From positions 405,857-469,856 of the forward strand of contig JACRJM010000015.1 of the NCBI GenBank assembly GCA_016219965.1: a stretch of 64,000 nucleotides of DNA, in the 5' to 3' direction. A program made the position numbers and the translations under genes. The notes under the pieces were generated by a model. The model had not been told where the DNA came from, made no database searches, and saw nothing but the letters and a program-made list of their open reading frames with translations. The DNA comes from Candidatus Schekmanbacteria bacterium. GTDB taxonomy: Bacteria; Schekmanbacteria; GWA2-38-11; J061. The number at the start of each line of letters is the position of its first letter. Within the stretch, counting starts at the first letter, position 1. This document shows positions 18,545 through 29,171 of this stretch, piece after piece.

Positions 18545-19812
18545 GGTGATGTCTTAAATCTTGTGTCAGAGTTAAGAGGGGTGCATCCTTAAGATGTTTT
18601 TCGGAAACAATTTAATTAAGGAGGTCACCCCATGCAGCAAAGAGCAGTTAAGTTTACGGTACAGGAAGCAATGAGAGAGGTCAAGAGTTTTGATGTTGAA
18701 GGGGATTATCGAGCAGCAGCGAGACAAGCGATAAAAGAGGTTTTAGAGAGCCGGATGGCAAATCGGGTAGATGAGTATTTATCAGAGCTTGATAGATTAG
18801 ACATATCTGATCGTCGGAACGGCAGTTATGACAGGCATTTATTAACAGCTTGCGGCGATGTTTCCATATCAGTTAAACGGACTCGGCAGTTTAGCGGATT
18901 GGGTGTGATAAAGGCATTTGAGCGGAGAGATTCTTCAATAGATCAGTTGATTATGAATTGTTTTACACTTGGGTTGGCGACCCGTAAGGTTGGAGTGGCT
19001 TTGCTTCCGGTGCTGGGAGAGAAGATATCTCGATCGACTGTCAGCGAAGTATCCAAGCAGCTTGACGCTTTTGTTGATGCTTATCATAAGAGGTCATTGA
19101 ATAATAAGTATCGTTTTTTGATGTTTGATGGAGTTGTTTTAAAGAATCGAACCGGTGCCGGATCAGTAAAGAAGGTCGTATTGGTGGCCTTGGGAGTTAC
19201 TCATGATAATAAGAAGGAGGTAATTGATTTTAAGCTTGCCTGCGGAGAATCGCAATCTTCCTGGGAGTCATTTTTAAATGATTTATACCGTCGTGGAATA
19301 ACAGGAGAAGGAGTAGATCTGATAGTGGTAGATGGAGGCACGGGTTTACTTGCTGCACTTGATATGGTTTATTCCGGAATCCCTGTCCAGAGGTGCTGGG
19401 CGCATAAGACCCACAATGTTATTAACTGTGTTAAAGAAAAAGATCAGAAAGCTGTAAAATATGATTTGCACAAGATAAGTCATGCATCCGGAGAAAGGGA
19501 AGCCCAGTCGATGTTTAAAGAATTTGCTTTAAAGTGGGGAAAGATATATCCAAAAGCTGTTCTCTGTCTGAGAAAAGATATAGACACATTGTTGAGCTTT
19601 TTTAAGATCAAAGACTTAAACCTGTGGAACACAATCAGAACAACCAATGCTATAGAAAGACGCTTCGTAGAGGTAAGACGAAGAACCAGACCTATGGGCG
19701 TATTTTCCAACAGAACAAGTATGGAAAGAATACTATTTGCAGTGTTTAGATATGAAAACATTAAAGAAGGTACTGCAACCCCTCTACTAATGACACAAAA
19801 CTAAGGACGCAA
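18545..19812 (+). mobile_element. IS256-family insertion sequence, apparently intact
   Basis: A full-length Mutator/IS256 transposase is bracketed by imperfect terminal inverted repeats. The left end shares TTGTGTCA (18561-18568) and AGAGGGGT (18575-18582) with the reverse complement of the right end (19798-19791 and 19785-19778), with matching spacing to within one base. Ten-base direct repeats flank the element. The exact outer ends are uncertain by about 2 bp. It lies between lpxH and valS and interrupts no recognisable gene. Confidence 0.85.
18632..19804 (+). CDS. IS256-family (Mutator) transposase
   Basis: The 390-aa transposase has the DDE residues in order: Asp in FLMFDGVVLK, Asp in LIVVDGGTG, Glu in TTNAIERRFVEVRRR, and the family C/H motif QRCWAHKTHN between the last two. 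The length is normal, with no frameshift or premature stop, so it is probably active. A perfect AAGGAGGT sequence lies 6 bases before the ATG. The last codons run through the right inverted repeat. Confidence 0.96.
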   Translation: MQQRAVKFTVQEAMREVKSFDVEGDYRAAARQAIKEVLESRMANRVDEYLSELDRLDISDRRNGSYDRHLLTACGDVSISVKRTRQFSGLGVIKAFERRDSSIDQLIMNCFTLGLATRKVGVALLPVLGEKISRSTVSEVSKQLDAFVDAYHKRSLNNKYRFLMFDGVVLKNRTGAGSVKKVVLVALGVTHDNKKEVIDFKLACGESQSSWESFLNDLYRRGITGEGVDLIVVDGGTGLLAALDMVYSGIPVQRCWAHKTHNVINCVKEKDQKAVKYDLHKISHASGEREAQSMFKEFALKWGKIYPKAVLCLRKDIDTLLSFFKIKDLNLWNTIRTTNAIERRFVEVRRRTRPMGVFSNRTSMERILFAVFRYENIKEGTATPLLMTQN

Positions 19813-26831: not shown

Positions 26832-28136
26832 TTGAGTAAAAAAATATTAGGAATTGATATTCCATCAGGGCTTTCAAAAAGAAATTTTTCTGCTCTTTTC
26901 ATTTCAACGGGTTTAGTAATGATGGTCTATATGATTCCAACCATAATCCTCCCGAGGTTGCTAAAGGAATCTATAGGCATTCCTGAAGCAGATTTTGGGA
27001 GAATAAATTCCATCACTCAGAATATCGACACTGTAACTTCCATTCTCTTTCTCTCACTTGTGGGCTCCCTATCAGATAAACATGGGAGAAAGATCCTAAT
27101 GCTCATAGGGCTTTTGGGCGTATCAGTCGCATTTACTCTCTATTCCTGTTCTCTTCCAGTAGGAGTTTTTTTTAAAGTTAATCCATTATGGTTTGTTTTC
27201 TTATTCCAGTTTGTCCTTTCCTTCTCTATGATTTTTGTTTTTTCTCAGCTTATGACGTTAGTTGCTGACTATACTGAAAGAAGAAGCAGAGGGAAAGCCA
27301 TGGCAATTAGCAGCACTATGATAGGAATAGGGATTACCATCTCGTTTGTATTCTTCTCCCAGCTTCAGAAACAGATAGGTGTAACCAATCTCCTTCTGGT
27401 AGGAGCTTTACTCACATCATTAACTTTTCTGATCGTTAAGTTTTTTATTGTGGACAGGATGCCTCATAAAGAAAGAGAGATATCAGCCAAAAGAAATTCA
27501 ACAATCAAAAACTGGAAAGAAGTATCTTCGGTGGTTGAAAAAAGTCCAGGACTTAAGGTCTGCTTTTTTACAAGCTTTGTAACCTCTTCAGCTAACATCA
27601 TATTGGGAGCTTTCCTGACCATCTGGGCTGTAAAGGTAGCGGGAAATTTTAATCTAACCCCTGCCGAAGCCACAGCTTTTGGAGGGATGGTAATTGGATT
27701 ATCAAGTCTGGTGGCTTTAGTTTCAACCTTCTTTTGGGGAATGCTCGTTGACAGGTTAGGCAGGATGCAGGTCATAGCGACAGGATTACTTTTAAATGGG
27801 ATAGGCTTTTTCCTTATAGGCATGACATCAAACCCGTTCTCTTCGGAAGTAAAACTGTACGGAGTGCTGACAGGGCTTGGTTCAGCAGGAGTTTCTGTCG
27901 GGTTTACATCTCTGCTCGCAGATCTTGCTCCCAAAAAGATTCTCGGATCTATATTTGGTATTTCAACTGCTATAGGTTCTTTAGGGACTCTGTTCTTTTT
28001 CCAATTAGGAGGATTCCTCTTTGATTATGTCGGCTTCTCAAGCCCATTTTCTATTGTAGGTATAGCTGACCTGATTGCATTTACCTATGCCATCTCTAAG
28101 TGGAAGCAGGTATCGAGGATTTCAGAAACCGGCTAA
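26832..28136 (+). CDS. Major facilitator superfamily transporter
   Basis: The 434-aa protein has about 12 hydrophobic segments and the MFS loop motif GSLSDKHGRKILM between helices 2 and 3, repeated in weaker form as WGMLVDRLGRMQV in the second half. The substrate cannot be told from sequence alone. The start is a TTG at 26832 with a purine-rich AAGAAG upstream. It follows tsaD by 52 nt and is probably the end of the valS run. Confidence 0.9.
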   Translation: MSKKILGIDIPSGLSKRNFSALFISTGLVMMVYMIPTIILPRLLKESIGIPEADFGRINSITQNIDTVTSILFLSLVGSLSDKHGRKILMLIGLLGVSVAFTLYSCSLPVGVFFKVNPLWFVFLFQFVLSFSMIFVFSQLMTLVADYTERRSRGKAMAISSTMIGIGITISFVFFSQLQKQIGVTNLLLVGALLTSLTFLIVKFFIVDRMPHKEREISAKRNSTIKNWKEVSSVVEKSPGLKVCFFTSFVTSSANIILGAFLTIWAVKVAGNFNLTPAEATAFGGMVIGLSSLVALVSTFFWGMLVDRLGRMQVIATGLLLNGIGFFLIGMTSNPFSSEVKLYGVLTGLGSAGVSVGFTSLLADLAPKKILGSIFGISTAIGSLGTLFFFQLGGFLFDYVGFSSPFSIVGIADLIAFTYAISKWKQVSRISETG

Positions 28137-28187: not shown

Positions 28188-28211
28188 AAAACTGTCGGGA
28201 AACTGAACATT
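28188..28211 (+). promoter_or_regulatory. Candidate sigma-54 activator site 1 (upstream repeat)
   Basis: AAAACTGTCGG-N4-CTGAACATT. The same sequence recurs at 28250, identical at 21 of 24 positions, with all differences in the central four bases. It contains a TGT-N11-ACA dyad. The centre is about 176 bp upstream of the predicted start of the sigma-54-type promoter at 28350, the usual distance for an enhancer-binding activator. Confidence 0.65.
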
Positions 28212-28249
28212 TATTTGCATTTAAAAACAGTAAGTTAGCAAATCTAAAA

Positions 28250-28273
28250 AAAACTGTCGGATATCTGAACATT
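28250..28273 (+). promoter_or_regulatory. Candidate sigma-54 activator site 2 (upstream repeat)
   Basis: This is the second copy of the element at 28188. Start-to-start spacing is 62 bp, close to six helical turns, so both sites face the same side of DNA. The centre is about 114 bp upstream of the predicted start. Confidence 0.65.
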
Positions 28274-28349
28274 CCTGTTTTTGTTGACCAAATAACTCCT
28301 GAATAAATAAAGATAGAGATTTCAAAATGTTATGGTTTCTAATACGTTT

Positions 28350-28364
28350 TGGAACAATTATTGC
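28350..28364 (+). promoter_or_regulatory. Sigma-54 (-24/-12) promoter of the PEP-CTERM gene
   Basis: TGGAACAATTATTGC keeps the invariant GG (28351-28352) and GC (28363-28364) exactly 10 bp apart and the TTGC -12 box. Compared with TGGCAyr it has A for C at one -24 position. The predicted start is near 28376, 37 nt before the ATG. Confidence 0.72.
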
Positions 28365-28412
28365 AAATAAAAAATGCACATAGAAGGATAAAGCTTTTTT
28401 TGGGGGGGTGGG

Positions 28413-29171
28413 ATGAAAAGAATATTTCTATTATTAGCGCTTGTCGCATTTTTGTTCACCGGAGTTTCTGCTAACGCAATAGTCATTGAACTTTATGCTG
28501 ATTCAGCTCCAAATGCATATGGTTCACCGGATTGGCTTCCTTGGAAGACTGATACTTTTGCTGCTGTTGCAGGTGGGACTTTCACAAATATGAGCAATGG
28601 CACTTATGCCGGCACCAATACATGGGCGCCGACAGATGGTATAGTTTACAGCACAGGTGATTTGGGTCAAAGGCTCCAATGGATTTACTGGCTTCCCGGT
28701 GAAACTGTTGCTGGGCTTGATGGAAGATTCCAGGTTAAAGATGTGGCTGACTGGGATGGGGTTGCATATGCAGGAGGTGCAGTTGTCGATGGTCCGGAAG
28801 TTGGATGGTCACAGCCTTTAAGCTGGATGAATTATGACCCGGATGGAATTGCAGGGAGTGGAGATGAAGGTGTAATAGGAACATTTGGAAATGCATGGTG
28901 GGCATGGGACAATGTTGCTTTACCATATAGCACGGATGCCAATCCATACAACGAAACTAATATTGCTGATATAACAGGTTTAGCTGGACAGATGTCTGTT
29001 TACCAGACTTACTGGACAGGAATGTTCAGGTACAGAGATGAACCAGGCGGTGCGTGGACTCAGACTGGTGAACTTGCGCTATATTTAACTCCGGTGCCGG
29101 AACCTTCAACATTGCTTCTCATTGGCGGTGGTCTTGCAGGGCTTTTCTACATAAGAAGGAAAAAAGCCTAA
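28413..29171 (+). CDS. PEP-CTERM sorting domain protein
   Basis: The 252-aa secreted protein has an N-terminal signal peptide (about residues 1-22, ending in SANA) and a C-terminal PEP-CTERM domain: VPEPSTLLLIGGGLAGLFYI followed by basic RRKKA. Exosortases recognise the PEP motif, remove the tail and release or anchor the protein, usually into an exopolysaccharide matrix. The mature part is rich in Trp, Gly and Asp, beta-strand-like, with no family I can name. It is a single-gene unit with a strong terminator after it and sigma-54-type control before it. GGGGGGGTGGG lies just before the ATG. Confidence 0.93.
   Translation: MKRIFLLLALVAFLFTGVSANAIVIELYADSAPNAYGSPDWLPWKTDTFAAVAGGTFTNMSNGTYAGTNTWAPTDGIVYSTGDLGQRLQWIYWLPGETVAGLDGRFQVKDVADWDGVAYAGGAVVDGPEVGWSQPLSWMNYDPDGIAGSGDEGVIGTFGNAWWAWDNVALPYSTDANPYNETNIADITGLAGQMSVYQTYWTGMFRYRDEPGGAWTQTGELALYLTPVPEPSTLLLIGGGLAGLFYIRRKKA

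Follow-up and report, generated by a model that had tools for sequence, protein, structure and literature searches.

The window analysed here, a stretch of 64,000 nucleotides from the 3.58-Mb genome of a Candidatus Schekmanbacteria bacterium, contains a control region with two repeats, two IHF-like sites and a sigma-54 promoter element, followed by a gene for a PEP-CTERM protein (Table 1). The protein terminates in ...TPVPEPSTLLLIGGGLAGLFYIRRKKA and carries a PEP motif, a hydrophobic helix and a basic tail at its C-terminus; it scores 27.7 bits against TIGR02595 (cut-off 16) and 33.6 bits against PF07589 (cut-off 20.7). On the upstream side, the control region is adjoined by a gene for an MFS transporter like magnetosome MamH (26832-28136; 242.7 bits, under the cut-off of 300), and a transposase of the Mutator family is encoded at 18632-19804.

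An earlier note on this DNA had described a sigma-54 control region with paired activator sites, consisting of two 24-bp repeats, 62 bp apart and identical at 21 of 24 positions, and a -24/-12 element whose GG and GC are 10 bp apart. This description proved exact: both repeats have the form AAAACTGTCGG-N4-CTGAACATT, their three differences all fall within the central four bases, and their centres lie about 175 and 113 bp ahead of the predicted start codon. Transcription would begin about 12 bp past the GC, near position 28376. Stronger examples of its kind exist: the -24 part in the window (TGGAAC) is weaker than the TGGCAT or TGGCAC usual in this genome, and the distal IHF-like site has two mismatches, although it keeps the conserved +34 distance counted from position 28191, where the box 20-mer begins.

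Table 1. Features of the control region and its gene, and two further proteins encoded in the window
Feature	Position	Strand	Basis or remark
Distal repeat, predicted distal PrsR box, AAAACTGTCGGGAAACTGAACATT	28188-28211	+	genome-wide box pattern
17-bp core of distal PrsR box, TGTCGGGAAACTGAACA	28193-28209	+	
Distal IHF-like site, AAACAGTAAGTTA	28225-28237	+	2 mismatches to WATCAANNNNTTR
Proximal repeat, predicted proximal PrsR box, AAAACTGTCGGATATCTGAACATT	28250-28273	+	genome-wide box pattern
17-bp core of proximal PrsR box, TGTCGGATATCTGAACA	28255-28271	+	
Proximal IHF-like site, TTTCAAAATGTTA	28320-28332	+	1 mismatch; exactly 30 bp before the -24/-12 element
Sigma-54 -24/-12 element, TGGAACAATTATTGC	28350-28364	+	GG-N10-GC
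PEP-CTERM protein, 252 aa, N-terminal signal-like stretch	28413-29171	+	TIGR02595, PF07589
IHF alpha-type protein, candidate partner	6129-6398 (C15:411985-412254)	+	PRK00285, 112.7 bits (cut-off 111)
NtrC/AtoC-type response regulator	769-2124	+	not PrsR, not a likely binder

A one-way box ahead of sigma-54 promoters

When the whole genome was scanned for the repeat pattern ACTGTCGG-N4-CTGAACAT with up to 3 mismatches, it was found in 32 places, compared with 16 for the reversed control, and among the matches inspected, more than half are followed by a -24/-12 element 95-235 bp downstream and then by a gene. The promoter consensus TGGCAY-N5-TTGC occurs 68 times (3 times for the control); together with the window promoter and one more (TGGAATATATTTTGC), this yields 70 sigma-54 promoters, 30 of which have a box 94-235 bp upstream. 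These counts are somewhat inflated by similar promoters of paralogous genes; duplication may lie behind the likeness of several promoters of propeller, oxidase and lipoprotein genes. The box has a 17-bp core, TGTCGG-N5-TRRACA (e.g. TGTCGGATTTTTGAACA; position weight matrix, PWM, from 39 sites), with invariant G, T, C and G in the left half and A and C in the right half.

Two short repeats are a common sight, and chance copies in an A/T-rich intergenic region could be suspected here. A matrix built from 18 seed sites, however, finds a site above 8 bits in 30 of 69 sigma-54 promoters, while column-shuffled matrices find 1.9 on average and 8 at most. As the matrix was trained partly on the sites being scored, the spacing test is the cleaner one: upstream of sigma-54 promoters, TGTCG-N9-ACA occurs 32 times in forward and twice in reversed orientation (p=7e-8 for orientation), and the same half-sites in forward orientation at spacings N4-N8 and N10-N13 do not occur there at all. 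With dozens of copies in one spacing and orientation, kept in relatives, and with control patterns near zero, the probability of a chance repeat is negligible, and we discarded this explanation on the shuffled-matrix and spacing/orientation controls.

The remaining sigma-54 promoters, which precede pilin, flagellar, ammonium transporter, glutamine-synthetase-like and similar genes (identities assigned by eye), lack the box and serve as an internal control. Where boxes are present, they are confined to enhancer distances upstream of the -24/-12 element and never overlap it; in many promoters of this genome, the sole box lies more than 130 nt from the -24 part. The phasing of the boxes alone relative to the -24 part is weak (R=0.44 at about 10.95 bp, jitter p=0.011), so we do not lean on it. 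At one locus (C3:375574), three boxes are located 393, 190 and 128 bp before the -24 part, with two similar PEP-CTERM genes in tandem downstream.

The genome encodes 19 PEP-CTERM proteins, 18 of which are testable since one gene is cut by a contig end. The expectation of the earlier note that the repeat should also precede -24/-12 elements of other PEP-CTERM genes held for 12 of these 18, which have both box and promoter, while a clear box with promoter is missing at the other 6, one of which shows weak signals. Conversely, just 9 of the 30 box promoters drive PEP-CTERM genes. The 21 targets without PEP-CTERM mostly have signal-like N-termini (by eye) and include multicopper-oxidase-like proteins, a small cytochrome, SBBP/DUF7948 propellers, proteins with thrombospondin type 3 repeats, FG-GAP or RCC1, subtilases, SdrD-B-like proteins and lipoprotein-like proteins without Pfam match. 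Two targets are regulators, a PocR-GAF-GGDEF protein (C15:41138) and one of AraC type (C4:378909), which suggests a cascade, perhaps including cyclic-di-GMP. Four more promoters with a weaker -24 part (C9:82670, C7:320852, C3:310724 and C3:391585) bring the total to about 34. The box is a switch that recurs before about 34 genes, mostly for secreted or surface proteins; this wider regulon had escaped the earlier note, as had the fixed orientation of the box and the phased IHF sites described below.

Four box targets (L114:560-1759, L089:111-1241, L133:687-1994 and L131:565-2124) have a common C-terminal region, LSSFxAxxxxKKVxLxWxTxTEIDNLGFNIxRSES..., in which no Pfam match was found. It is possibly a surface-sorting or Ig-like domain.

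The probable activator and the box in other genomes

A single protein of the genome exceeds the TIGR02915 cut-off for PrsR (544.9 bits, cut-off 502.6; C15:70054-71415). It is preceded by PrsK (417.7 bits, cut-off 300) in an operon of the order exosortase-EpsI-PrsK-PrsR, about 335 kb from the window. This order is kept in two of the three other genomes of the phylum (G002 and G003), and the third (G001), where the contig is cut, retains PrsK-PrsR.

The earlier note had named the regulator at 769-2124 as the candidate binder. This was not borne out: the protein reaches 412.3 bits against TIGR02915, well short of the cut-off, is most like NtrC/AtoC and has a different recognition helix. The adjoining gene (2409-3506) encodes a NosR-like response regulator with an HD domain and is preceded by a box-less sigma-54 element at 2338-2352 (TGGCATATGTCTTGC), which is possibly a target of the regulator at 769-2124.

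Since the genome encodes about 18 full sigma-54 activators, the attribution of the box to PrsR is a comparative one. The host belongs to a phylum represented here by four species, and so not to the Proteobacteria; all four genomes encode PrsR above the cut-off and contain boxes. In G001, G002 and G003, these lie ahead of -24/-12 elements and PEP-CTERM genes, with pairs 62-66 bp apart. Most boxes of the draft genome G001 (L188, L190, L192, L335, L338, L343 and L345) are no more than about 170 bp away from the end of a contig; it looks as though a shared A/T-rich promoter sequence broke the assembly. In G002, a box and a GGGCAT-type -24/-12 element precede a 51-aa open reading frame, MFCEKKPYRKPVLNKVNLVAEEAVLGVCKNNTQAGPNQSGCIIPQCFNEGS, on the minus strand (L203, contig C26), which looks like a modified-peptide precursor.

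Among 290 genomes, PrsR was identified at E < 1e-150 in 16. Where genomes of other phyla encode PrsR, TGTCG-N9-ACA is found 11 times ahead of their PEP-CTERM genes, compared with 0-2 times at other spacings, which indicates that the window box is a diverged PrsR box. The genome with the highest-scoring PrsR (G285; 748.9 bits) has the boxes TGTCAATTTCTTTTACA, TGTCGGTTATTTTAACA and TGTCGCTTATTTTTACA, located 61-64 nt before the -24 part and ending in TTTACA in two of three cases; they match motif 1 of the proteobacterial PrsR element (discussed below) and thereby support the same kind of operator in the window. A short-range combination of box and promoter is present in 4 of the 16 PrsR-positive and 2 of the 274 other genomes (p=9e-5), counts that are lower bounds, as the search used one gap range and catches proximal boxes only. 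In three PrsR-positive genomes (G094, G100 and G175), no box was found before PEP-CTERM genes. A search of genome contigs with PrsR as query returned one real relative, in an Omnitrophota metagenome-assembled genome.

Both box and protein differ between the phylum and other genomes. A T before the final ACA is found in 3 of 39 boxes in this genome and in 10 of 14 elsewhere (p=1e-5). The recognition-helix region of PrsR follows the pattern SR[PG]T[LFM][YH]xLxxK, with SRPT or SRPS in most proteins from outside the phylum and SRGT in all four from within. The PrsR-type helix SRGTFYDLLKKHGI occurs in none of the other activators of this genome that were aligned (14 of about 17 recovered). One protein from another genome (G030) scores above the TIGR02915 cut-off, yet it has the canonical helix HRNTLRRKIKKYNL and its genome yields no PEP-CTERM match, so the family model has probably made a false call here.

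These observations also bear on the idea that the box serves as operator for another activator of the NtrC family, such as the one at 769-2124, that took over the PEP-CTERM genes while PrsR controls something else. There is no shortage of candidates, given the number of full activators in this genome and the many related ones matched in each of the phylum's four genomes. We nevertheless consider such a takeover unlikely: boxes of this format also stand before PEP-CTERM genes where genomes of other phyla encode PrsR, combinations of box and promoter track PrsR, the PrsR-type helix is absent from the other aligned regulators of this genome, and the classic sigma-54 promoters have no box. The comparative evidence thus favours a PrsR-type operator outside the Proteobacteria; in this, as in the control region itself, the reading given in the earlier note stands, while its choice of regulator does not.

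IHF-like sites at fixed offsets

The consensus of IHF binding sites is WATCAANNNNTTR. Copies with no more than one mismatch begin 28-33 bp before the -24 part in 12 of 30 box promoters, compared with 1 of 40 box-less promoters; in several more box promoters, such a copy is located about 41-42 bp before the -24 part, and the box-less promoters have a cluster of their own at 40-41 bp. A second position is tied to the box. Counted from the first base of the box 20-mer, the consensus starts at exactly 34 bp in 14 of 41 boxes of this genome and at 33 and 35 bp in one box each; G001-G003 have it at 34 bp in 7 of their 27 boxes. In this genome, the boxes with a +34 site are all distal, at least 155 bp before the -24 part. 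Three promoters with boxes at 204-206 have a two-mismatch copy at +44, i.e. one turn further (by eye).

As a composite pattern, box and IHF site together yield 21 matches, 11 in this genome (the distal box of the window among them), 6 in G001 and 4 in G002, and none for the control. In the composites that were checked and are not cut by a contig end, a -24/-12 element follows 169-191 bp on. No composite was found in G003, which is 70% complete, nor in any of 11 PrsR-positive genomes from other phyla. In G285, reverse IHF-like sites are located 31-33 bp before the -24 part in all three box promoters, which suggests that the near bend may be general and the distal composite particular to this phylum.

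Besides the IHF alpha-type protein of the window, the genome encodes an IHF-beta-like protein (112.9 bits, just under the cut-off of 115) and HU. This genome has both IHF consensus sites between enhancer and -24/-12 element and genes for IHF-type subunits. Alternatively, the box could be bound by a repressor, or HU or intrinsic A/T curvature could take the place of IHF. HU is available, and the stretch ahead of box promoters is indeed richer in A/T than in box-less ones (78% versus 69%). We regard this as quite improbable, as the consensus is not scattered over the A/T-rich stretch but keeps precise distances, +34 to the box and 30-32 or 41-42 bp to the -24 part, and as the boxes keep solely to enhancer distances, clear of the promoter element. 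The boxes are probably read by PrsR together with the DNA-bending protein IHF.

In the literature searched, we found neither the fixed IHF offset nor a majority of targets without PEP-CTERM; as far as titles and abstracts tell, publications on PEP-CTERM together with integration host factor are not about such promoters.

The proposed switch and known systems

Taken together, these features make it quite probable that region 28188-28364 is a sigma-54 enhancer-promoter of a PrsR regulon. In the mechanism we infer, with activation as the direction of control, the kinase PrsK would phosphorylate PrsR, and PrsR dimers would occupy the oriented 17-bp boxes, two of them in the window, where their distance of 62 bp corresponds to about six helical turns. 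IHF would bend the DNA twice, once at a site 34 bp into the unit of the distal box and once at a site 30 bp ahead of the -24 element, and these bends would carry the AAA+ hexamer of PrsR onto the sigma-54 RNA polymerase at the -24/-12 element, a contact that would open the promoter of the PEP-CTERM gene. With about 34 promoters controlled in this manner, envelope cargo would be co-expressed with the exosortase, whose gene neighbours those of PrsK and PrsR. Signalling, box binding, IHF bending and promoter opening through an AAA+ domain are steps familiar from activators of the NtrC type.

Given their one-way orientation and fixed offset, box and IHF site may form a stereospecific module. A bolder version, to which we give slightly less than an even chance, is that PrsR and IHF constitute a single enhancer module, rigid and one-way (box, 34 bp, IHF), which is repeated or shifted by entire helical turns and whose stereospecific complex fixes the side of the activator that faces the polymerase over dozens of promoters, and that PrsR is a general regulator of surface proteins. 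If so, this would define an orientation-dependent class of sigma-54 enhancers, with a PrsR that is not PEP-CTERM-specific. The arrangement makes it testable whether a bacterial enhancer can be orientation-dependent, and the changed half-site, together with the change from SRPT to SRGT in the recognition helix, offers a direct test of protein-DNA covariation. Through the regulon, the exosortase switch is also connected with multicopper-oxidase-like proteins, small cytochromes, subtilases and propeller proteins. In 2006, the PrsR box had been predicted for Proteobacteria alone, and the switching-on of PEP-CTERM genes has been little tested; by comparative evidence, the switch described here appears to be related to the proteobacterial one and rebuilt with a rigid 34-base IHF link in a separate, little-studied phylum.

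The classic NtrC-type enhancer, TGCACC-N5-GGTGCA, is a 17-bp dyad. The present boxes share this length and the 6-5-6 layout, but they have a different half-site, a strongly one-way orientation and pairs six turns apart. In the IHF-assisted sigma-54 promoters of PspF, NifA and CbrB, an IHF bend is located between enhancer and -24/-12 element (PMC7175178, PMC6296734); the binding of PspF and IHF is cooperative according to work cited in PMC7175178, and the targets of CbrB are IHF-dependent (PMC6296734). The predicted arrangement in the window is alike, with activator sites upstream and IHF sites in between, but the rigid, oriented composite of activator box and IHF site, with one fixed offset at many promoters in related genera, sets it apart, for instance from the variably spaced subsites of CbrB. 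Another relative is pepA of Aquincola tertiaricarbonis, likewise an RpoN-dependent PEP-CTERM gene, with a mapped start and a predicted upstream enhancer; its host, however, is a proteobacterium, and excerpts of the account mention neither paired boxes nor IHF (PMC9850573).

The closest counterpart is the cis-element of PEP-CTERM genes described by Haft et al. (2006; PMC1569441), in Proteobacteria only, which consists of motif 1 and motif 2 and is associated with PrsK/PrsR/PrsT. Motif 1 is 17 nt long, ends in TTTACA at its 3' end, is sometimes repeated and precedes the -24/-12 element; the element was found before 99 of 167 PEP-CTERM genes, the spacer from the most 3' motif to the -24 motif is 32-92 nt (mean 62.8), and the PrsK-PrsR genes adjoin the exosortase (PMC1569441). 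The window and its genome share the 17-nt upstream motif followed by -24/-12 ahead of most testable PEP-CTERM genes and the position of PrsK-PrsR beside the exosortase, and the boxes of G285 reproduce the TTTACA end and the spacer of about 63 nt. As to the spacer in this genome, the 78 nt between proximal box and -24 part in the window fall inside the published range, but many other promoters have their sole box beyond 130 nt. In contrast, the right half of the boxes in this genome is TGAACA, TAGACA or TGGACA, the boxes lie 94-235 bp before the -24 part and often come in pairs at a distance of 62-66 bp, the majority of targets lack PEP-CTERM, the host belongs to a separate phylum, and the fixed IHF offset was not described by Haft et al. 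As the TTTACA end is not shared, we file the boxes of this genome as a variant, rather than a member, of the PrsR cis-element. To judge from the comparison, the window element appears to be the same kind of operator as motif 1, with a diverged right half.
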